A stretch of DNA of 64,000 nucleotides from positions 1 to 64,000 of the forward strand of contig NZ_FMVQ01000009.1 in assembly GCF_900102495.1 (NCBI RefSeq), written 5' to 3'. The position numbers and the translations under genes were made by a program. The notes below the pieces were generated by a model, which ran no database searches, had not been told where the DNA came from, and saw nothing but the letters and a program-made list of their open reading frames with translations. Position 1 is the first letter of the stretch. The number at the start of each line of letters is the position of its first letter. The stretch is from Nitrosospira sp. Nl5. GTDB taxonomy: Bacteria > Pseudomonadota > Gammaproteobacteria > Burkholderiales > Nitrosomonadaceae. Positions 13,486-23,990 of the stretch are shown here, one piece after another.

Positions 13486-14911
13486 GCCGCATGTGTACAC
13501 CTTGGATATTGATAACCCGCTTTAGGTTGTAGCTCAATGCGCTCAACGCCAGCTCCGCCTTTGCTTTCTTCAACCCCCGCAGCAGAAAGCGGGGACTCCC
13601 CATCATCCATTTGACGGTGCCAAAGGGATGTTCAACGACACTGCCTCTGCTTCATCCATATCGGGTTGCTTGTTACTCGCTGGTGCATTGCTTCCACCAC
13701 CTCTTCGTGGAAAGCTTCGCACCACCACACGCCGCCTGGATTTCGTGCATTGATCCTTGAGCGCACCGCCCCCACGGGCCCTAGTGGTTTAATCCTTCTT
13801 CTGCGCAACCAATGAAACGCTGGATCGGGTCAAGGTTGCGCCGGCCGGGCAACGCCAGCTGTCCGTTTTTGCATCGTAGGTGAACTCATCGCGGCTAAAG
13901 TGTCCCCTCCGCGCTTGTTGACAGCCCTTGGCCGCGGCACGATGGCAGTAATACCGCTTTGCTCGCATTTACTGCCTTGCTCCCCATTTGAACCGAATCC
14001 GCAACGACCGTCACGCTCCTGACCTGCAGTTCGTCCTTGCCCAAGGTTGCCCATCGGATGCAGTTGCCTGGAATCATTGCCTTCATTAGTGAGGTCAAAT
14101 GCCACAATCAGCTTGTGCCTGGCATCGACCGCCAGCTGGGCGTTATAGGCAACCTCGAAACCGTGATAAGGTGTACGCATCAATCTGGCCTCGGGCTCGG
14201 TTGCCACATGCGGCCTGATGCCTTGATCGGCCATTTCCTGCACGCGCCGCTGCCACATCCGGGCATACTGCCTGGCTGCTCCCAGGCTCATGCAGGTCGG
14301 CTTTATCCAGCGCCGTCAGATATTTGCCAATCTTCTGGTCAAGCGCTGCCATCTGTTCTGCCAGGCGTTTGGGCGTCACGACCGCTTACGGCTGGCTACC
14401 GCCTCGATCCTGGGGCCATCAATGGCCAGCAGTTCGCCGCCAAATAACTGCTGCCTACGACAGAAGCCAATAAATTCCCGGCATACGCCTACAATGGCTT
14501 GCGCATGGCCCCGGCGAAAGTCGGCTATGGTCTTGTAGGTCGGCGAAACACGGTTTACCAGCCACATCACTTCGATGTTGCGCCTCGTTTCCCGCGATCA
14601 TGCGGCTTGAGCGCACCCGGTTCAGATAACCGTATACGTACAGCTTCAGCAAATCGCCCGGCGCGTACGGCGAACGTCCCGTGGCCTCAGCAACGACCTC
14701 CTTGAACCCCAATTGGCCCAGATCAAGACTGTCCACAAACGCCTCGATCACTCGCACCGGATGATCTTGCGCAATCAATTCATCCAGTGATTCGGGAAAC
14801 AGCGTTATCTGATGGCGCGAAGGTCCGGTTATGTGAGTCACGATATTCCTTTGGCTTGTCGATGTCTCGTCAGTGTAATAACTGCAAAGACTTTTTTAAA
14901 GCCTATATACG
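13379..14911 (-). mobile_element. IS1182-family insertion sequence (defective)
   Basis: The element is bounded by imperfect inverted ends: 13379-13403 (core GGCTGTGAAAAAACTCGC) and, on the right, 14889-14911 (GACTTTTTTAAAGCC...TACG on the + strand). It contains a transposase gene broken by several frameshifts, so it should be immobile without help. A second, exact inverted copy of the left 25 bases occurs further right at 16276-16300. I could not identify target-site duplications. Confidence 0.7.
13457..14841 (-). pseudogene. IS1182-family transposase, frameshifted
   Basis: Reading the minus strand across several frames recovers a near full-length transposase. The N terminus is ITGPSRHQITLFPESLDELI and SPYAPGDLLKLYVYGYLNR. 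The middle carries VAYNAQLAVDARHKLIVAFD and later AVNKRGG. The C terminus (in a third frame) contains WMMGSPRFLLRGLKKAKAEL, NLKRVINIQG and ends NTLRPSFG. At least three frame changes separate these blocks, so the gene is dead. Its GTG start follows AAGGA. Confidence 0.85.
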
Positions 14912-15007
14912 AATATGACTATAGATACAGAATCTGGTTTGACAACATAAATTCCATCATCTAATTTGAAGCAATGGATGCTAAACGTCACCTTGCCGGA
15001 GGATAAG

Positions 15008-16174
15008 ATGATAGTCAGCTGTTGCTTCAAAGCCCGTAGCCTCATTCTGATCGGAGCCCTGGTTAGCGGCCTAGGCCCCGGTACTCTTGCATCCGCGCAG
15101 GAACGCTCCTTCTTTGTCGACCTCAACAGCAGGACAGTGACGGACCTTGGCAGTTTATACGGTAGAAATATCACTGCTACCGCCATAAACGATGCCGGTC
15201 AGTTGGCGGGATATCATTCTCTCAGGAACGGATTAAACCCTTTTAGTGCTTTCATCACCGGCCCTGATGGCATGGGAATGAGAGACCTTGGCAATTTAGG
15301 CGGTAAACTTCCTCAACCATATAGCAGTGCTTACGGCATCAACAATTCGGGGCAGGTAGCGGGAGATTCTTACACTGCTGAAGGCACTATCCATGCTTTC
15401 ATCACGGGCCCCGATGGGGTCGGCATGAGGGACCTTGGCACTTTAGAAGGCAGTGGAGAAGGCCATGCTACTGGCATCAACAATGCCGGGCAGGTGGTCG
15501 GATGGGCTTACACACCCGAGGGTTTCCCCCATGCCTTCATCACCGGCCCCAACGGAATGGGGATGAGGGACCTTGGTACGTTAGGCGGTAACATCACCTT
15601 TGCTACTCGCATCAACGATGTCGGCCAGGTGGTGGGAGAGTCTCAAACAGCTGAAGGCAATAGCCATGCCTTCATCACCGGTCCCGACGGGATGGGCATG
15701 AGGGACCTTGGCACGTTTGGCGATTTCAGCACCGCCTACGGCATCAACAATGCTGGGCAGGTGGTAGGAAGCTCTCGTTTTACGTCTGACGGCCTTATCC
15801 ATGCCTTCATCACCGGCCCCAATGACATGAGGATAAGAGACTTGGGCACCTTAGGCGGGGATTTCAGCGACGCTAGTGATATCAACGATGCGGGACAGGT
15901 AGTAGGACGCTCTACTCTCACGCCTGGAACAATTCCTAGTCCAGGCGCTTACCATGTCTTCATCACTGGCCCTAACGGGGAAGGCATGATGGATCTCAAT
16001 TCACTGATTGACCTGCCCGAGGGGGTAATTCTTACCAACGCTATTGATATTAATAACAATGGCCAAGTGATTGCTACGGGGATTCCCGAACCCGAAACCT
16101 ATGCCTTGATGCTGGCAGGGTTGGGCCTGATCGGGTTCATTGCGGGGCGCAAAAAGTCAGAAGTCCGAATTTAG
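15008..16174 (+). CDS. HAF-repeat exported protein with PEP-CTERM sorting signal
   Basis: Exported protein of 388 aa. An N-terminal signal peptide (CCFKARSLILIGALVSGLG) is followed by about six ~45-residue HAF-type repeats, each carrying variants of AFITGPDGMGMRDLGTLGG and INNAGQVVG. The last ~28 residues are a PEP-CTERM signal: Pro-Glu-Pro, a hydrophobic helix, then RKK, directing exosortase processing and surface delivery or secretion, often linked to exopolysaccharide. I chose the ATG with GGAGG 5 bases upstream; longer alternatives start at TTG. It lies between an IS and an orphan IS end, so it may have travelled with them. Confidence 0.88.
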   Translation: MIVSCCFKARSLILIGALVSGLGPGTLASAQERSFFVDLNSRTVTDLGSLYGRNITATAINDAGQLAGYHSLRNGLNPFSAFITGPDGMGMRDLGNLGGKLPQPYSSAYGINNSGQVAGDSYTAEGTIHAFITGPDGVGMRDLGTLEGSGEGHATGINNAGQVVGWAYTPEGFPHAFITGPNGMGMRDLGTLGGNITFATRINDVGQVVGESQTAEGNSHAFITGPDGMGMRDLGTFGDFSTAYGINNAGQVVGSSRFTSDGLIHAFITGPNDMRIRDLGTLGGDFSDASDINDAGQVVGRSTLTPGTIPSPGAYHVFITGPNGEGMMDLNSLIDLPEGVILTNAIDINNNGQVIATGIPEPETYALMLAGLGLIGFIAGRKKSEVRI

Positions 16175-16759: not shown

Positions 16760-17273
16760 GATATACCTCGTAGTAATTCGGCGAAATTGCTGAACTGAGA
16801 TGATACGCCGGTCACCAATTTGTTCCGTTCGTTGACGTACTGAAGCTTGATCGCTGCGAATACTCCGAAATTTTGCTCGCCGTCTCGCTACCATGAATCG
16901 CCGCGCCGATGCTTGGTGCTACCTCAGTACAAGGGGCAACGCTCCAGAACCCGTAAGGTTAGCGCACCGACCAATAGCTCAGGTATTTACCAGGCAGGCC
17001 TATCGCAAGCCCGCGCTCCTCTTACACCCTACGTTGTGTACACAATATTTGTGCGCACAACCATTTTGCCGCGGGGGCTATATAACCTATCTACTACACA
17101 AGGATAACGTCCTACCTGTAACTTCTTACAGCTACTCGTGGATTTTTAATTCTTGTACCCTGCCGGTGGGGAAAGCGCTGAATAAGAAGCTCATCAGCAG
17201 ACCGGCCGCTCCCAGCCATATTCGCTTTCAGATAGTTCATAAACCACAAATCTCTCAATCTTAAGGAGCGTGA
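16760..17273. other. Regulatory intergenic region before the catalase-LodA gene
   Basis: About 510 bases without a supported gene, serving divergent promoters. It contains two adjacent 12-bp palindromes (17034-17060), a TATATAA box-like sequence near 17080, and a small CTGTAA/TTACAG inverted repeat near 17115-17130. A + strand frame across this stretch has no ribosome site or recognisable protein features and was not accepted. Confidence 0.55.
17034..17060. promoter_or_regulatory. Tandem palindromes TTGTG-NN-CACAA, probable operator
   Basis: TTGTGTACACAA and TTGTGCGCACAA, each a perfect 12-bp palindrome, are separated by three bases (centres 15 bp apart). They lie about 215 bases upstream of the catalase-LodA start. 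Two equal half-site pairs in tandem strongly suggest binding by a dimeric repressor or activator; its identity is unknown and no regulator gene is adjacent. Confidence 0.65.
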
Positions 17274-20207
17274 ATGAGCCAGGACATGAAGCCGATTCCA
17301 GAGTGCTTTGATTCCAAAAACCAATCCACGGAACGCCTGACCGAAATGTTTGTAGGCATTGGGCAGGAAAATCGCATTAAACTGGGCCAGAATCCCGCTG
17401 AGCGAGCGGTATTTCGCAAGTTGCACGGCGTTGCCTCCGGTCGGCTGGTAATGGAACATAACGTTCCGGTCGATTTGAAGGTTGGCGTATTTGCCCACGA
17501 CAGCCTTACGGCCTGGGTACGCTTCTCCAGCGATACCACACCTACCTCACCTGATCTGGCTTCCACAGTGGGAATCGGCATCAAATTGTTTGGTGTGCCG
17601 GGACCAAAAGCATTAGGCGAGAATGGCGATACGGCCGATTTCATCATGCAGAATTTTCCGGTATTTTTTGTCGACAATGCCAGGGAGATGTGTGAGTTCA
17701 CCTATGCTGGGGTGGTTGCGCGCGATTATCCCGGTTATCTGAGAAAACATCCTAAAACCGCTGAAATTCTGGATCGCATGGAAAAAGTGGAAGGCAGTGT
17801 GTTAACCACCACTTACTGGGCGATTCTGCCGTTTAAATCCGGTGAAAAAGAATACGTCAAGTTTCGGCTGGACCCTGAAACGCCGCCGCAGAATGTACCC
17901 AACAATGCGGCCGACTACCTTGCGGTGGATCTGTGCCAGCGTCTTCTGACGCGAGAATACCGCTTTCGCTTCATGGTGCAGCGGCGCACCAATTCCGCCA
18001 ATATGCCTCTGGATGAAGCGACACAGGAATGGCCGGAGGAGGAAAGTCCTTTCGTGCATGTGGCCACCCTGATCTTGTCCCAACAGGATATTGCGACTCG
18101 CGGCCAAGCCGAGTATGGCCAGAGCCTGGCGTTCAACATCTGGCGCGTGCCGATGGAGCAGGCGCCGGTGGGCTCCATCGCCGAGGCGCGCAAAATGGCC
18201 TATGCAGCCGGGGCACATGCACGCCACGAGGCGAACGGCCAGCCATTGCAGGATCTGCCCGAACCGCGTGCAACAACAACGGCGGAAGCGCCGCCGGACA
18301 CGTGCGTAGTCAAAGCGGTGATTTACCCATCGATCGGAGTAGCCCGCGTGGGTTCGAGCAAGAATGAATGGTTTCTCGGGCCCGAGGTACCTAACCCGCC
18401 CCCGGCCGCACCCGGCTTCTATCGCGATGCGGACAAGAAACTGAAACGGCAGGGCGCGCGGTTTCGGCTCTACGGAGTCAATGCCAAGGGAAAAATTGTT
18501 CGCGAATTGACCGCGGGTGAGGCAAAAATTGAGTGGAGCGTGCAACTCGCCAATACGAAATCCGCGTGGTACGGTTTTCAGTTGGCACTCGACATTCCCG
18601 AAGCCGCAGCGGCTCCGCCGACTACTTTGCGCAATGCGAGCATTCCCGACCGCGACAAACTCGCGATCCGGCCAGGCGTAAAAAAGGTTTCCGGCAAAAA
18701 CGCACAGCCTCAGCGTTTCGATGACGGGAGATTCATGGGCAAGCCCGTATATCTGGGAGAGATTTTCAGCGATGAGCAAGGGCACCTGATCGTCTTGGGC
18801 GGACACGGTGAATCCGCGTCGTATGATGGGAGCCGCGCCATTACCTTCGCCAACAACGAGGGCTGGCATGACGATATCTCCGATGGTTCCGTCACTGCCA
18901 GCGTGACCTATCAGGGGCAAGCGCTAGCCGTGGTTCCCGCCTGGGTTATTGTCGCGCCGCCCAACTATGGGCCGCAACGAAAGTCGGTACGCACCATGTG
19001 GGATCTGATGCGCGATGTGGCAATCTCCGGTGGAATGCTGCCAATGCCGGTGCGGCCCAGCTTTAGCGCTGATATCCTGCCGTTGTTCGAAAGATTGAAT
19101 GGTTTGCAATGGGTGAATGCGGGCTTTGCCTCCGCATTTGGATGGAAGGGACTATTTGATCTAACCAGCCCGCAGGCGTTGGCGAGATTGTCTGATCCCA
19201 GCGTCGCAAATCTCGAATTGCGCCGCGCGATTGTCAAGCAATTCCGCAACGACGCGATCGACTCGTGGTCGCCCGATCCCTGGCCCTGGCTGTATGGCGA
19301 CGCCATGGCGATCCCACCTTCCCACACCGTGAATCAGAATACCGCCCTCACCGCAACCCAGTTAGCGATGCTGGCGCAATGGGCGATGGGCGATTTTACT
19401 GCAGATTATGATCCGGTGCGGACACTGCCCGCTACCATCGAGGCAGTGCCCCTGGCCGAGCAGGGTGATACGCTGACCCAGGCGGCACTCGAATTCTGCC
19501 TGGCCGATGCCTTTCATCCCGGCTGTGAAATGACTTGGCCGGTGCGCTCGATCACCCTGTATATGGCACCGTTCCGCTTTGCTCATGCCCCCGACGGCTG
19601 GGTACCGCCAAGCCTGGGCGAAATCCTTTCCAGCGATAGCGTGACCATTCCCGGCGGGCCGTTATATGGCCAGCAAGCCGGCGATATTACGCGCTGGATG
19701 GCGGTACCGTGGCAAACCGACACCGCCAGTTGCCGTTCCGGCTACGATAAGAGTTACGATCCTTACGTTCCCAGCTTCTGGCCGGCACGGGTGCCGAACC
19801 AGGTGCTGACGCGCCAGAATTACGACATCATAATGGATACGAAAGCCCCGCTGGGGGAGCGGCTGGCGGCATTTGCCAACCGGGCTGCATGGACGGCGCC
19901 GTTAGGCAGCACCAGCTATACCGATCAAATCAATAACATGATTCACCATTTTGATCATCTCGGAGTGGTCGAGACATACGACGGCCCGCCCGATCATGAG
20001 AATTTCCCCGGCAAGATGGAGGTGGAAGACCAGCACGTGCTCATCCACGATATGCCGCAGGCAACGGTGGCGCAGCACGAAATCAGGCGCCTGACGATAT
20101 CCGCTCCCTCTCCGCGCAGCAGTGCCCATCTTGGCATAGCGAGCGATTCACTTGATCTGACGTCAATTGAAAAGGTGCGGCGGTTTCCCAAAGGCATAAC
20201 AGGCTGA
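17274..20207 (+). CDS. Fusion: catalase-like (y4iL-type) domain plus LodA/GoxA-type quinoprotein oxidase
   Basis: The 977-residue protein has two parts. Residues ~15-325 match the y4iL-like catalase branch: FRKLHGVASGRLVM (candidate distal His51), AWVRFSS, GIGIKLFGVPG, DFIMQNFPVFFV, and SLAFNIWRVP followed by the final helix. Residues ~342-925 match LodA/GoxA oxidases: VIYPSIGVARVGSS, FLGPEVP, EWSVQLANTKSAWYGF, LVVLGGHG-like IVLGGHG, WHDDISDGSV, VIVAPPNYGP, then ALEFCLADAFHPGCEMTWP, PWQTD, and FWPARVPNQVL. This family builds cysteine tryptophylquinone from a Cys and a Trp; candidates here are Cys742 or Cys751 and Trp813 or Trp836, unassigned. LodA enzymes release H2O2, which the N-terminal domain could remove. 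There is no classical signal peptide. An AAGGAG ribosome site precedes the ATG. Confidence 0.85.
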   Translation: MSQDMKPIPECFDSKNQSTERLTEMFVGIGQENRIKLGQNPAERAVFRKLHGVASGRLVMEHNVPVDLKVGVFAHDSLTAWVRFSSDTTPTSPDLASTVGIGIKLFGVPGPKALGENGDTADFIMQNFPVFFVDNAREMCEFTYAGVVARDYPGYLRKHPKTAEILDRMEKVEGSVLTTTYWAILPFKSGEKEYVKFRLDPETPPQNVPNNAADYLAVDLCQRLLTREYRFRFMVQRRTNSANMPLDEATQEWPEEESPFVHVATLILSQQDIATRGQAEYGQSLAFNIWRVPMEQAPVGSIAEARKMAYAAGAHARHEANGQPLQDLPEPRATTTAEAPPDTCVVKAVIYPSIGVARVGSSKNEWFLGPEVPNPPPAAPGFYRDADKKLKRQGARFRLYGVNAKGKIVRELTAGEAKIEWSVQLANTKSAWYGFQLALDIPEAAAAPPTTLRNASIPDRDKLAIRPGVKKVSGKNAQPQRFDDGRFMGKPVYLGEIFSDEQGHLIVLGGHGESASYDGSRAITFANNEGWHDDISDGSVTASVTYQGQALAVVPAWVIVAPPNYGPQRKSVRTMWDLMRDVAISGGMLPMPVRPSFSADILPLFERLNGLQWVNAGFASAFGWKGLFDLTSPQALARLSDPSVANLELRRAIVKQFRNDAIDSWSPDPWPWLYGDAMAIPPSHTVNQNTALTATQLAMLAQWAMGDFTADYDPVRTLPATIEAVPLAEQGDTLTQAALEFCLADAFHPGCEMTWPVRSITLYMAPFRFAHAPDGWVPPSLGEILSSDSVTIPGGPLYGQQAGDITRWMAVPWQTDTASCRSGYDKSYDPYVPSFWPARVPNQVLTRQNYDIIMDTKAPLGERLAAFANRAAWTAPLGSTSYTDQINNMIHHFDHLGVVETYDGPPDHENFPGKMEVEDQHVLIHDMPQATVAQHEIRRLTISAPSPRSSAHLGIASDSLDLTSIEKVRRFPKGITG

Positions 20208-20217
20208 GATTAGGGAA

Positions 20218-21441
20218 ATGAGCGCATCCGCCCCCGTCATTACGGCGGATGCCGTAGTGGTGGGAGCAGGTCCGGCCGGAGCAGCCTTTGCCTTGAACCT
20301 CGCTCCTTTTCAGCGGGTACTGCTGCTGGAAAAACGTGCCGCGCCAGTCTTGCGGCCGGGCGAATCCCTACCGGGTGCCGCACGCCGCCTGTTGCATGAC
20401 ATGGGTTTGTGGGATGCTTTTTTGAATCAGGGGCACCGTCCCTGCCATCTTATCCGCAGTACCTGGGGCGGCAATGAAGTCCTGGAACAGGATGCGATGC
20501 GTGATCTGGATGGCCATGGATGGTATCTGGATCGGGCCCGTTTCGAGGGCTGGCTGCAGCACGTCGCCCAGGAGCGCGGTGCTGCCCTGTTGACGGAAGC
20601 GCGACTGCTGGCACTGACACGTACGCCCGACTCAAGCTGGCAGCTCAATATCCAAAGACAAGGCAAGCCGCTCACGGTTCGTGCCCGGCTGCTGGTTGAT
20701 GCAGCTGGCCGCAGTTCTTCGGTGACGAAGCGGCTCGGGGGCAAGCGCCGGGCACGGGATAAACTGGTGTGCGGTTGGCTGTATGGAAGGGATACAGGAC
20801 CAGACGGCGCCGATACCGGCATGAGCCATATTCATGCCGAAATGGGCGGCTGGTGGTATTCGTCGCCACTACCCGGCTCTGAAAAGAACCGTATTCTCGC
20901 ATTTTATACCGATGCCGATTTACCGCAAGCGGCGAGCGCGCATAACCGGGAGAACCTGGTGGCACGGCTTGCGGCAGTGCCAGAATTATGGAGGCAACTG
21001 AATACGGTTGACTTCACCGCAGGCCCGCAAGCCGGATTTTGCACAGCGCATAGCGCCAATCTGGACAGTGCGGCGGGTGATGGCTGGCTGGCGATTGGCG
21101 ATGCCGCGCTTGCCTTCGATCCGCTATCATCGCAAGGATTATTTAATTCCCTCTACACAGGCCTGGCAGGCGCTGAGGCAGCCCAGCAATTCCTTCAGGG
21201 CGCCTCCAATGCCCTGGCGGGCTACAACTCTCAATTGGCAAATATTCAGCATGCCTACCTCGCTCACCTTGAGGCGTGGTATGGGCAAGAGACTCGCTGG
21301 ATTGATCAGCCGTTCTGGCAACGACGCCAGGGCGGCAAGGTGAACAGCACCGGTGGCCTATCTTCAAATAATGCTGGCATGTCTAGTACAAAAAGCCCCG
21401 GCTTTAACGAGATGTTAGATGCTCACCGAGCAAAAAAGTAA
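20218..21441 (+). CDS. lodB: LodB/GoxB-type FAD-dependent maturation protein
   Basis: Flavoprotein of 407 aa in the tryptophan-halogenase/PHBH-like group. FAD motif VVVGAGPAGAAFALNL is at 13-28, RPGESLPG follows near 45, and WLAIGDAALAFDPLSSQG near 290 is the second FAD motif. LodB-type proteins are needed to form the tryptophylquinone cofactor of LodA-type oxidases. It starts 10 bases after the oxidase stop with AGGGA upstream, so it is cotranscribed. This pairing strongly supports the LodA assignment of the preceding fusion. Confidence 0.88.
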   Translation: MSASAPVITADAVVVGAGPAGAAFALNLAPFQRVLLLEKRAAPVLRPGESLPGAARRLLHDMGLWDAFLNQGHRPCHLIRSTWGGNEVLEQDAMRDLDGHGWYLDRARFEGWLQHVAQERGAALLTEARLLALTRTPDSSWQLNIQRQGKPLTVRARLLVDAAGRSSSVTKRLGGKRRARDKLVCGWLYGRDTGPDGADTGMSHIHAEMGGWWYSSPLPGSEKNRILAFYTDADLPQAASAHNRENLVARLAAVPELWRQLNTVDFTAGPQAGFCTAHSANLDSAAGDGWLAIGDAALAFDPLSSQGLFNSLYTGLAGAEAAQQFLQGASNALAGYNSQLANIQHAYLAHLEAWYGQETRWIDQPFWQRRQGGKVNSTGGLSSNNAGMSSTKSPGFNEMLDAHRAKK

Positions 21442-21804
21442 TTATTTAGACTGCCTCTCGAAATACGCAGCGGCGTCAAGAAGCGGCTGCGGATTACCGC
21501 CCTGGCGGGCAACAATTGACGCCGTCTCTTTATAATGCTTTGCCAGCGATCCCGCCTGCCGGAGATACAACGGTTCCTGCGCCTTTAGCTGCCTGTCATT
21601 TTCCTGCCGTATCTTTTTTCTGTTCTTCTCAACATTTGCTTGCTGAAGCCCCGCATTCACCTTTTCTCCGAAGGGCTGTGCCAACCCTGGTGCTTCTTCG
21701 GTGGCAGCATATACCAACCCCGGGGCTTCGGCGCCAATCGTAACTGCCACGGCAACGATCAGCAGGGCAAGGATGGTCCTGGTCGAGTGGATGCATTGTC
21801 CCAT
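21442..21804 (-). CDS. Small exported helical protein of unknown function
   Basis: Hypothetical protein of 120 aa. An N-terminal signal sequence (TILALLIVAVAVTIGAEA) precedes a charged, helical chain rich in Gln, Lys and Ala, with no Cys in the mature part. It converges on lodB with stop codons directly abutting (no spacer). The ATG has GAGGA 9 bases upstream. No domain is recognised; the function is unknown. Confidence 0.65.
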   Translation of the reverse strand: MGQCIHSTRTILALLIVAVAVTIGAEAPGLVYAATEEAPGLAQPFGEKVNAGLQQANVEKNRKKIRQENDRQLKAQEPLYLRQAGSLAKHYKETASIVARQGGNPQPLLDAAAYFERQSK

Positions 21805-21851: not shown

Positions 21852-23990
21852 TCAGTGAGCCAACCCCCGGTCGACCGAAAACGCGATGGAGTTGGTGTTT
21901 ACGGCGACGGGACGGAGAAATTGGCCCCCGTACAGGTCTCCACCGGAGAGACCTGTAACAAGAAGATTGGGTACGGCTTTATCTGCGGATAGCGTGACCT
22001 GATTGGTCGTGCGATTCCACGTCGCCTGAATAGCTGCCGATCTGGCGTTAAGACTTTCCTGGGTATAGTCGCCAATCAGATAATAGGGATAATTCTGGAC
22101 CGGCAGGTTAAACAGCCCCTCGTATTCTGCGAAGACAGCATTTAACCAGTCAAATTGAAGCGTATTACCGCTCTCATCATATCTAGCCAGATTCGACTGA
22201 TGGAAAAAATGCGGCCATTTATTAAAGGTCAGCATGTGCCGCAATGCGATATCAGCTTCGGCCATCAGAATTTCCGCATAATCCCGGGGGGTGCAGATAG
22301 CGCCGGGTATTTCACATGGATTTTGTCCCGCATCGACAAATCTGCCGTGAAGGATATAGTTGTACTCATCCCTCAACTGGAGCGGGTTTGTCACATTACA
22401 GTAAATATTGGTCGGCCAGCGCGGCAACAAAAGTCGATCCGTCCGGCTGCCATCCTCGTACTGAGCGATATACTGTTCAACGTTCTGACCTTTCTGGGAC
22501 GCATCGGCCCCAAGATAGTCAACGCCCGCGCTCGCGGCGGCCTCAAGGAATAAGGAATTGGCGCCTCCCGCATCAAACGCGATGTCGTCGGCTTGAACGT
22601 TGAACATGTCCGGGTGCAAAGAAGGATCATTGGTGCATTTTGGATCTTTCAGGCCGGAATGTTTGCCGGTTACGAGCACCCGGTTATTTTGGCTTTCCTC
22701 AGGGAGACCCAGAAGTCCCCAGACCATCCGATTCTTGGTGATTTCCGCCTGGATGGCCGCGATGGTAGTAAAGGTAGGGTAATCACAAGAGACACCTGGC
22801 GACTCCGGCACCTTATCCATATGGGGATGGCTATAGGTGTGGTTGATAAAGCGGAAATATGCTTTGTTAGCAACCACTGCCGCCACCAAGTCGTCCGTCA
22901 TGTTTGCAGCCGGTGTCGTTGCTGCCGGATCTACCACTGCGCCGGAACCGTTGAATGGAAAATCCAGCTTGAAAGTGCCTGCTATCGGATGGGCGGCAAG
23001 AAAGGCGACCTGTTTTCTCACCGCGTTGCTAATATCATCGCTGCTCAACCGATAGGTATTAGCAGGATTATCCCTCTTTAGCGCGGAATCCCATAGATTG
23101 TTGGCAATAAACAAATCATCCAAGTGGGCAGCCATATGGACACGCCGCCCCCCCACGAATACCCCTTGCGTCACCCAGTTAATGAACTCGTAGGCCAGAA
23201 CCTTAGAATGGAAGAGGAATGGTGCATGCGTAATCGTCGAGATCATCACTTCGCGTACCGGTGTAGCCTGGGAAGGCACCATGTATCGTATGATCGATAA
23301 CAACGCTTCACCATTCTGGGTTCTCAGCAGCGGCTCAACGCTTGGGACAGAACCATCCCGCAGGCTGCTCATATCATTTCGAGGAATGGCCGCGAAGGCA
23401 AAGTCCGTAATTGGAAGCGGTTTATCCTTGTTCACATACTCGAAAACTTCCTTGCTGTATCCGCCACGTACTGTCCATCGGGCGTCGTAGTCGGTTGAAC
23501 TGGATGAATAGACAAGGCCATAATCCAGGTAGACGCCATAAGGAGGCTCCGAGTCCCGATACGTGCCCGGCCATCCTGACAGCACCGCTTGACGAACGCC
23601 GAAGTCTTTCTGGTAATCGTGCAGGATGTCCCATTCCGCTGGTGTGAAGCTTGGAACCAGGTCAGAGTCCGTTATGATGACGCCATTATAGTTGCCGAGA
23701 CAGCCTGTATCCTTGGCTTTGCAGGCGGCTCCGGCCGGGGTAGAGGCGAGCATTGCAGCCGTTAAATCCTGTTTGCCGGCATTTAATACATCGTATCCCA
23801 CTCCCATTTCGTCAAGGACAGGCTTGATGTAGGCCAATCCCAGATCTTCCGCTATATCGCCCGTCGTGACGACTAATATCCTTAATTTGACGGCGTTGTC
23901 AGCAAATGCGGGAGCTGTCACACCGATTAAGGCCCACCATATTGTCATTGCAGCAAGCAGGAAGCATTTCCTGCTCACGTTCTTTCTCAT
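21852..23990 (-). CDS. Secreted Agd3-like (CE18-type) polysaccharide deacetylase
   Basis: Exported protein of 712 aa. Signal peptide at ~1-30 (WWALIGVTAPAFA). Residues ~35-280 look like the Agd3 N-terminal/carbohydrate-binding part (LRILVVTTGD, VIITDSDL, WPGTYRDSEPPYGVYLDYG). The NodB-like catalytic part has MAAHLDDLFI with Asp291/292 and NHTYSHPHMD with His384 and His388/390 as likely metal ligands. Agd3 proteins deacetylate galactosaminogalactan in fungi; bacterial homologues are less studied, and the substrate here is unknown. GGAGG lies 8 bases before the ATG. Its position beside the oxidase locus suggests a surface or biofilm role, which is inference. Confidence 0.7.
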   Translation of the reverse strand: MRKNVSRKCFLLAAMTIWWALIGVTAPAFADNAVKLRILVVTTGDIAEDLGLAYIKPVLDEMGVGYDVLNAGKQDLTAAMLASTPAGAACKAKDTGCLGNYNGVIITDSDLVPSFTPAEWDILHDYQKDFGVRQAVLSGWPGTYRDSEPPYGVYLDYGLVYSSSSTDYDARWTVRGGYSKEVFEYVNKDKPLPITDFAFAAIPRNDMSSLRDGSVPSVEPLLRTQNGEALLSIIRYMVPSQATPVREVMISTITHAPFLFHSKVLAYEFINWVTQGVFVGGRRVHMAAHLDDLFIANNLWDSALKRDNPANTYRLSSDDISNAVRKQVAFLAAHPIAGTFKLDFPFNGSGAVVDPAATTPAANMTDDLVAAVVANKAYFRFINHTYSHPHMDKVPESPGVSCDYPTFTTIAAIQAEITKNRMVWGLLGLPEESQNNRVLVTGKHSGLKDPKCTNDPSLHPDMFNVQADDIAFDAGGANSLFLEAAASAGVDYLGADASQKGQNVEQYIAQYEDGSRTDRLLLPRWPTNIYCNVTNPLQLRDEYNYILHGRFVDAGQNPCEIPGAICTPRDYAEILMAEADIALRHMLTFNKWPHFFHQSNLARYDESGNTLQFDWLNAVFAEYEGLFNLPVQNYPYYLIGDYTQESLNARSAAIQATWNRTTNQVTLSADKAVPNLLVTGLSGGDLYGGQFLRPVAVNTNSIAFSVDRGLAH

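Follow-up and report, generated by a model that had tools for sequence, protein, structure and literature searches.

What does a catalase-like domain do when it is joined to an enzyme expected to make H2O2? This question is raised by a gene in the 64,000-nucleotide stretch of Nitrosospira sp. Nl5 DNA analyzed here (contig NZ_FMVQ01000009.1, positions 1 to 64,000; hereafter, the window), which encodes a y4iL-type catalase-like domain followed by an oxidase of the LodA type, whose cofactor is cysteine tryptophylquinone (CTQ). A LodB-like flavoprotein is encoded directly downstream. A sequence-only reading of the window had offered two answers, namely a self-protected oxidase that disposes of its own peroxide, or a cascade in which the H2O2 is used on another substrate. 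We found that the fusion is real and widespread, and that its catalase-like domain is, judged by alignment, haem-anchored but rewritten at the distal haem site, where catalytic His is replaced by Phe, Val by Asp and Asn by Gln. What makes the locus interesting is this unusual but conserved distal site, which corrects the attractive guess of a catalase-protected oxidase.

The fusion gene is one uninterrupted frame of 977 codons on the forward strand, with an ATG start and zero internal stops, just as the sequence-only reading had described it, and both parts were matched within one open frame in 81/81 loci from public contigs. The scan behind this number searched contigs from 84,980 species for two peptide patterns, each lying in the LodA part, and the loci studied are the best 80 of 209 relatives by match to the whole fusion plus 1 from IMG/VR. 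This search for the catalase-LodA architecture, which the sequence-only reading had proposed, placed the fused loci in six phyla (Pseudomonadota, Bacteroidota, Myxococcota, Actinomycetota, Cyanobacteriota and Acidobacteriota), those of Cyanobacteriota and Acidobacteriota coming from metagenome bins. Seventy-four of the loci were aligned with the window protein, to which they are 51-75% identical, giving a 75-row fusion alignment. Outside it stand L074, in which a contig end cuts the first part and the distal half is missing, and the near copies L085, L092, L097, L106, L107 and L111, which were checked separately and agree at all sites discussed below. L101 and L034 stand for one and the same contig; a frame-broken fusion (L038, genome G234) was not counted, nor were L181 and L147 (G596, the same as or very near L102), which agree as far as they reach. 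LodA_C was found in 10/369 sampled genomes of the class and 12/398 of the phylum, most of them not fused.

The architecture has been in print since 2015, whereas the sequence-only reading had named no described example. Campillo-Brocal et al. 2015 (PMC4417212; this and the other PMC papers are cited from portions of their text) list in their Table 3 21 LodA-like proteins of 963-1072 amino acids with an N-terminal pfam00199 domain matching cd08152 (y4iL). All 21 fall in group III, no member of which had been characterized by 2015; the fused proteins form no subgroup of their own, and the family is reported to have LodB as a neighbour. The portions of that paper drawn on here mention neither a distal-site rewrite nor a split operon, and those of PMC4699246 do not mention a catalase. 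In the open-licence PMC literature we found neither a later paper treating the fusion by its title nor a description of a rewritten distal haem site in LodA-linked domains.

The catalase part is real, though weak by sequence. The Pfam Catalase model PF00199 scored 18 bits on the window domain, below its cut-off of 25, and reached E <= 0.01 in 25/40 relatives of the domain. A profile built from 40 catalase-like domains matched catalases in the PDB (3e4w, E 1.6e-10; 4qol, E 3.6e-7), and hhalign of the domain against nine separate y4iL-type genes gave E 1.4e-56. An AlphaFold model of residues 1-335 had a predicted local distance difference test score (pLDDT) of 89.6 and a predicted template modelling score of 0.88. 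Its best Foldseek matches were catalases and catalase-related proteins, among them 3e4y (E 5.2e-17, TM 0.72) and the coral allene oxide synthase (cAOS) structure 1u5u. The y4iL-type assignment is one of sequence kinship, and the name cd08152 for this kind is taken from PMC4417212.

We aligned 78 LodA-linked domains (76 fused and 2 encoded by genes of their own) with 37 unlinked y4iL-type domains, the nearest relatives of the fusion's N-terminal domain, and with catalases of host-related genomes. The catalase set, at first seven picked by motif, was enlarged to all 19 complete loci including the host's own, L174 being left out for its internal stop. The unlinked rows are the best loci among the matches listed and comprise 36 separate genes and L132, in which the y4iL-type domain is fused to a haem peroxidase; some are near copies, and L191, L196, L197 and L199, which have a stop in the match, entered the alignment with their open frame alone. 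The 2.5-4.0 kb stretches surrounding these 37 rows gave no LodA match.

Arg44, Arg83, Arg306, Tyr310 and Arg317 were invariant in 78/78 linked rows and in the catalases, and Arg44, Arg83, Arg317 and Tyr310 are the equivalents of the cAOS haem residues R64, R102, R360 and proximal Y353 (PMC5617202). Since the fold is that of catalases and both the proximal Tyr and the Args that bind haem are kept, haem b is expected, and the N-terminal domain very probably binds haem. The distal side has Phe47, Asp87 and Gln126 in 84/84 LodA-linked domains whose sequence covers it; these are the 78 aligned linked rows and 6 further fused rows, making 82 fused domains and 2 in separate genes beside lodA. Among the unlinked y4iL-type rows, the distal His place (motif R-x-x-H-x-K/R) holds His in 32/37, Asn in 4, Gln in 1 and Phe in none; Asp is found at residue 87 in 0/37 (Glu in one) and Gln at residue 126 in 0/37 (Asn in 2). 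Asn127, which adjoins Gln126, is kept in 76/78 linked rows. The column that sets Phe against His was seen in the profile match, in direct alignments with catalases and via the y4iL-type profile. Loss of haem-ligand residues, which the sequence-only reading had named as evidence that would count against it, was found only for the distal catalytic residues; the haem ligand Tyr310 is kept.

We take the catalytic Asn to be the first of the 'NN' pair; Val116 and Asn148 are numbers of the human enzyme. The catalytic residues of HPII are His128, Asn201 and Tyr415 (PMC8699984), and human Val116 is described as an invariably conserved residue of the inner channel, where Val116Ala raised the peroxidatic activity of yeast catalase A (PMC8773446). 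Among the fold matches was PDB entry 3hb6, titled 'Inactive mutant H54F of Proteus mirabilis catalase'. His54 of this enzyme is presumably its distal His; no paper on the distal His-to-Phe change (H54F) in catalase was found in the open-licence PMC literature. Since its distal site is rewritten, the N-terminal domain would not be an H2O2-disproportionating enzyme, and in all likelihood it is not a canonical catalase. The coordinates of these and the other features are collected in Table 1.

Table 1. Features of the fusion gene and its lodB-like neighbour (positions count from the first letter of the window).
Feature	Position	Strand	Basis
Fusion gene, catalase-like domain + LodA-type CTQ oxidase, 977 aa (amino acids)	17274..20207	+	open frame; Pfam; 81 loci with the same order
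Shine-Dalgarno-like AAGGAG ahead of the fusion gene	17263..17268	+	read in the sequence; 5 bases between motif and ATG
Catalase-like (y4iL-type) domain, about aa 15-322	17316..18239	+	profile match to PDB catalases; fold match; hhalign
Phe47, at the catalytic distal His place of catalases	17412..17414	+	Phe in 78/78 linked rows; His in 19/19 catalases
Asp87, at the channel Val place (human Val116)	17532..17534	+	Asp in 78/78 linked, 0/37 unlinked; Val in 19/19 catalases
Gln126, at the catalytic Asn place (human Asn148, HPII Asn201)	17649..17651	+	Gln in 78/78 linked, 0/37 unlinked; Asn in 18/19 catalases
Arg306-x-x-x-Tyr310, putative proximal haem Arg and Tyr ligand	18189..18203	+	invariant in 78/78 linked rows and 19/19 catalases
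LodA-type oxidase part, aa 345-918	18306..20027	+	LodA_N, LodA_C; GoxA model aa 333-918; best Foldseek matches LodA and GoxA structures
His748 (GoxA His583 place)	19515..19517	+	GoxA alignment; invariant in 75/75
Asp816 and Cys820 (GoxA Asp678 place; putative CTQ Cys)	19719..19733	+	LodA Cys516 motif PWQxDxxxC; invariant in 75/75
Trp836 (putative CTQ Trp, LodA Trp581 place, W before P)	19779..19781	+	LodA motif WP; invariant in 75/75
lodB-like flavoprotein gene, 407 aa, predicted CTQ maturation	20218..21441	+	GoxB/LodB models; begins 10 bases past the fusion gene

The y4iL-type family also occurs in other redox pairings. Separate y4iL-type genes follow a gene matching RoxA-like cytochrome c (L127:2-2445 and L125:1429-3902) or a marginal match to DyP peroxidase (L128:74-2418; 22.1 bits, cut-off 20), the gene ends overlapping by one base in each case. 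In L132:868-3795, a single frame places a y4iL-type domain ahead of a haem peroxidase domain of the animal type.

The quinone part of the window protein looks intact, with the CTQ and active-site residues predicted for a group III LodA-like protein. LodA_N matched residues 351-560 with 276.5 bits (cut-off 26.3) and LodA_C residues 684-836 with 136.3 bits (cut-off 25). On the NCBIfam equivalog models, the fusion scored 430.7 of the 750 bits required for GoxA and 165.7 of 600 for LodA; both scores are below cut-off, and the substrate of the oxidase therefore cannot be named. The flavoprotein partner, which the sequence-only reading had also recognized, scored 248.4 and 213.2 bits on the GoxB and LodB maturase models, both below the equivalog cut-off of 400. 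Phe525, His748 and Asp816 stand at the places of GoxA Phe316, His583 and Asp678, counted on the GoxA alignment, and mutants of these three GoxA residues are named in PDB titles. In LodA, numbered here as in chain 3weu, Cys516 and Trp581 form CTQ (PMC4417212). Phe525, His748, Asp816, Cys820 and Trp836 were all invariant in the 75 fusions aligned. Cys751 (19524-19526, motif FHPGC) is likewise invariant in 75/75, and GoxA has Val there. No signal sequence was seen by eye in the fusion protein, which is probably cytoplasmic.

A LodB match lies downstream in 76/81 fused loci (in pieces only in L080 and L118), and in the remaining five the sequence stops a short way past lodA. Besides LodB, no neighbour family occurs in more than 10/81 loci, which led us to reject a conserved larger operon; the families seen in ten loci are either reading frames on the strand opposite lodB or belong to Tenacibaculum and its close relatives.

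The catalase-like domain can also stand beside lodA as a gene of its own. In L210 (genome G742), a lodA-like gene (796 amino acids) and lodB are followed by a separate 635-residue protein that starts with a catalase-like domain keeping the Phe, Asp, Gln, Tyr and Args. This protein (L210:7201-9105) continues past the domain for about 290 residues, and as a whole it has no Pfam match at E 0.01. A plasmid of Sinorhizobium medicae (L178) carries the domain as its own 333-residue frame ahead of a fragmented lodA, an arrangement that may have arisen by decay of a fusion. We built hand-thinned trees of 82 rows (first LodA tree), 76 (comparison of N- and C-terminal domains), 66 (LodA tree with plasmid copies) and 90 (domain tree). 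In the domain tree, a single branch with support 100/99 split 53 linked from 37 unlinked rows. A tree in which the fused rows form a single clade that excludes L176, L210 and L178 was not rejected by an approximately unbiased test (p 0.085). Across 66 rows, the N-domain and C-domain trees gave correlated distances (r 0.86); the highest r among 200 permutations was 0.09. In the first LodA tree, whose sample was drawn with the fusion as query, 67 fused rows formed one clade.

By analogy with known two-domain enzymes, we tentatively prefer to read the fusion as a two-cofactor enzyme whose haem domain could process the H2O2 or the product of its oxidase in cis. As family members suggest, LodB would finish the CTQ, and the CTQ oxidase would convert an amine or amino acid to an imine or aldehyde, NH3 and H2O2. 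The N-terminal haem domain would then consume the H2O2 of the attached oxidase, or rework the imine or aldehyde product, in the manner of the coral allene oxide synthase-lipoxygenase. Of the two answers given by the sequence-only reading, this reasoning favours an H2O2 cascade on another substrate over self-protection. That the Phe/Asp/Gln set is kept over six phyla, and even in a separate gene after lodA-lodB, points to other chemistry; no assay of chemistry at such a site was found in the open-licence PMC literature. In a bolder form of the proposal, LodA-linked domains would be a distinct, unrecognized class of catalase-fold haem peroxidase or peroxygenase that uses Asp87 (with Gln126) as distal acid-base and is fed H2O2 in cis. 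We consider this unlikely; if true, a single chain would unite haem with a protein-derived quinone in a self-fuelled peroxygenase.

Several observations weigh against the two-cofactor enzyme. O-O cleavage normally needs a distal base, and loss of the distal His should lower peroxidase-type reactivity as well; Asp87 and Gln126 are candidate replacements by position only. Direct hhalign of the domain to catalases begins past position 47 and misses Phe47. Structure prediction, which the sequence-only reading had suggested for both cofactor sites, bore out the catalase fold in the model of residues 1-335 and did not do so for the quinone site: the full-length AlphaFold model (pLDDT 76.5) is poor there, with pLDDT < 50 at residues 809-839. 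The domain is also absent from close kin. In the LodA tree with plasmid copies, the unfused L175 (61% identity in the LodA part) clusters with 22 fused rows (support 99/96). A larger clade of 52 rows (support 100/99), of which 50 are fused, contains both L175 and the unfused L177, the exact place of L177 in it being weak. Both lack the domain and retain the CTQ residues and LodB.

No trace of the N-terminal domain was detected in 9.9 kb around L175 and L177, in a search for which L176, L210 and L178 served as positive controls. The unfused L036 and L149 retain the CTQ residues too. Because unfused close kin keep the CTQ residues and LodB, the domain appears to be an add-on that is dispensable for the quinone. 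The fused L176 falls outside the 52-row clade, together with the split L210, and four changes are needed overall. A single fusion without losses was rejected, as unfused plasmid copies break the clade; on these trees, the domain was lost in some kin or joined more than once. The absence of a single clade of fused rows here agrees with PMC4417212.

Among the rival explanations, self-protection by a working catalase that acts on H2O2 from the CTQ site, with His51 replacing the distal His, would suit the catalase-like fold and haem anchors and the invariance of His51 in 78/78 linked rows. However, His51 is no new gain, being present in 31/37 unlinked relatives, 28 of which have the ordinary distal His as well, and we rejected it as a substitute acquired by the fusion. 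Self-protection is distinctly improbable because the distal His is Phe in every linked domain, a change titled inactive in the Proteus catalase (3hb6); the distal Val and Asn are altered too. The same loss of the distal catalytic residue, in all 84 readable linked domains, would be natural if the domain were non-catalytic, with or without haem, serving as a scaffold, an oligomerization part or a redox- or gas-sensing part that tunes the oxidase, and its absence from some close kin with the CTQ residues kept is in line with this. But polar Asp87 and Gln126 are invariant across six phyla, as for an active site, and all haem anchors are kept, which leaves a non-catalytic role possible but doubtful in our view.

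A haem domain could instead assist CTQ formation, as a built-in counterpart of MauG, the di-haem protein of methylamine dehydrogenase, which contributes to the formation of a related quinone cofactor (PMC7876137). The helpers named for LodA and GoxA are, however, the flavoproteins LodB and GoxB (PMC7876137), a LodB match adjoins 76/81 fused loci (the other five ending too soon to tell), and the unfused L036, L149, L175 and L177 retain the CTQ residues; we rejected such a MauG-like role, which is very improbable. An artefact, through mis-assembly or a chance frame joining unrelated genes, would account for the weak Pfam catalase score, but it conflicts with the same two-part order in 81/81 loci, with the 51-75% identity of the 74 aligned and with the 21 such proteins already in print (PMC4417212), and it was rejected as having next to no probability.

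The host genome encodes AmoA, and the host is therefore an ammonia oxidizer. A frame long enough for the fusion was present in 1/61 sampled genomes of the family, 23 of which belong to the genus, and the closest fusion copies among the aligned loci, with 72-75% identity, are from Undibacterium and Pseudomonas. Four of four relatives match the window only from about 21389-21442 rightwards, so that synteny starts at the lodB end; the 12 kb of sequence taken from relatives did not yield the left flank of the empty site. G+C content is 57.5% for the fusion, 59.2% for lodB and 54.5% for the window, and third-position G+C is 64.6% for the fusion and 63.4% for a neighbour gene, making G+C a weak sign of transfer. 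The pair of fusion gene and lodB was likely gained horizontally, a conclusion that rests on distribution and synteny more than on composition.

An ordinary catalase gene is also present in the host genome (L166). The host has a second, shorter LodA-like gene (L002, contig C31, 38766-39131, in a 528-residue frame), in which the CTQ Cys and Trp are kept and Phe replaces the active-site His. LodA_C matches occur in 16/23 genus genomes, mostly in frames of 520-600 residues, and one genus member (G010) encodes a LodA-like protein (L003:343-2424) that is far closer to lysine 6-oxidase (857 bits) than the window's protein is. A few kb upstream of the fusion, 13830-14841 holds broken transposase-like frames, with a marginal DUF772 match at 14458-14841 and none at 13833-14291, and 14966-16174 encodes an HAF-repeat protein with a PEP-CTERM sorting signal. 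Downstream, on the reverse strand, 21852-23990 is an Agd3-type polysaccharide deacetylase-like gene, whose stretch matches DNA of 20/23 genus genomes.

Compared with known systems, the fusion has the same two-domain architecture and size as the group III LodA-like proteins with pfam00199/cd08152 (PMC4417212). It shares LodA_N and LodA_C, the CTQ Cys and Trp, the active-site Asp and a LodB/GoxB partner with LodA (lysine 6-oxidase) and GoxA (glycine oxidase), which, unlike the fusion, have no catalase-like domain. With monofunctional haem catalases, its N-terminal domain has in common the fold, the proximal Tyr and the haem Args; at about 310 residues, however, it is much shorter than the matched catalases, and the distal His, Val and Asn are all replaced. 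A parallel in layout is the coral allene oxide synthase-lipoxygenase and hydroperoxide lyase-lipoxygenase, in which a catalase-fold haem domain is likewise N-terminal to a peroxide maker and keeps the haem Args and proximal Tyr (PMC5617202). The two arrangements differ in their partners, a lipoxygenase in the coral and a LodA-type CTQ oxidase here, and in their distal sites: cAOS keeps distal His67 and Asn137 (PMC5617202), where the fusion has Phe and Gln.

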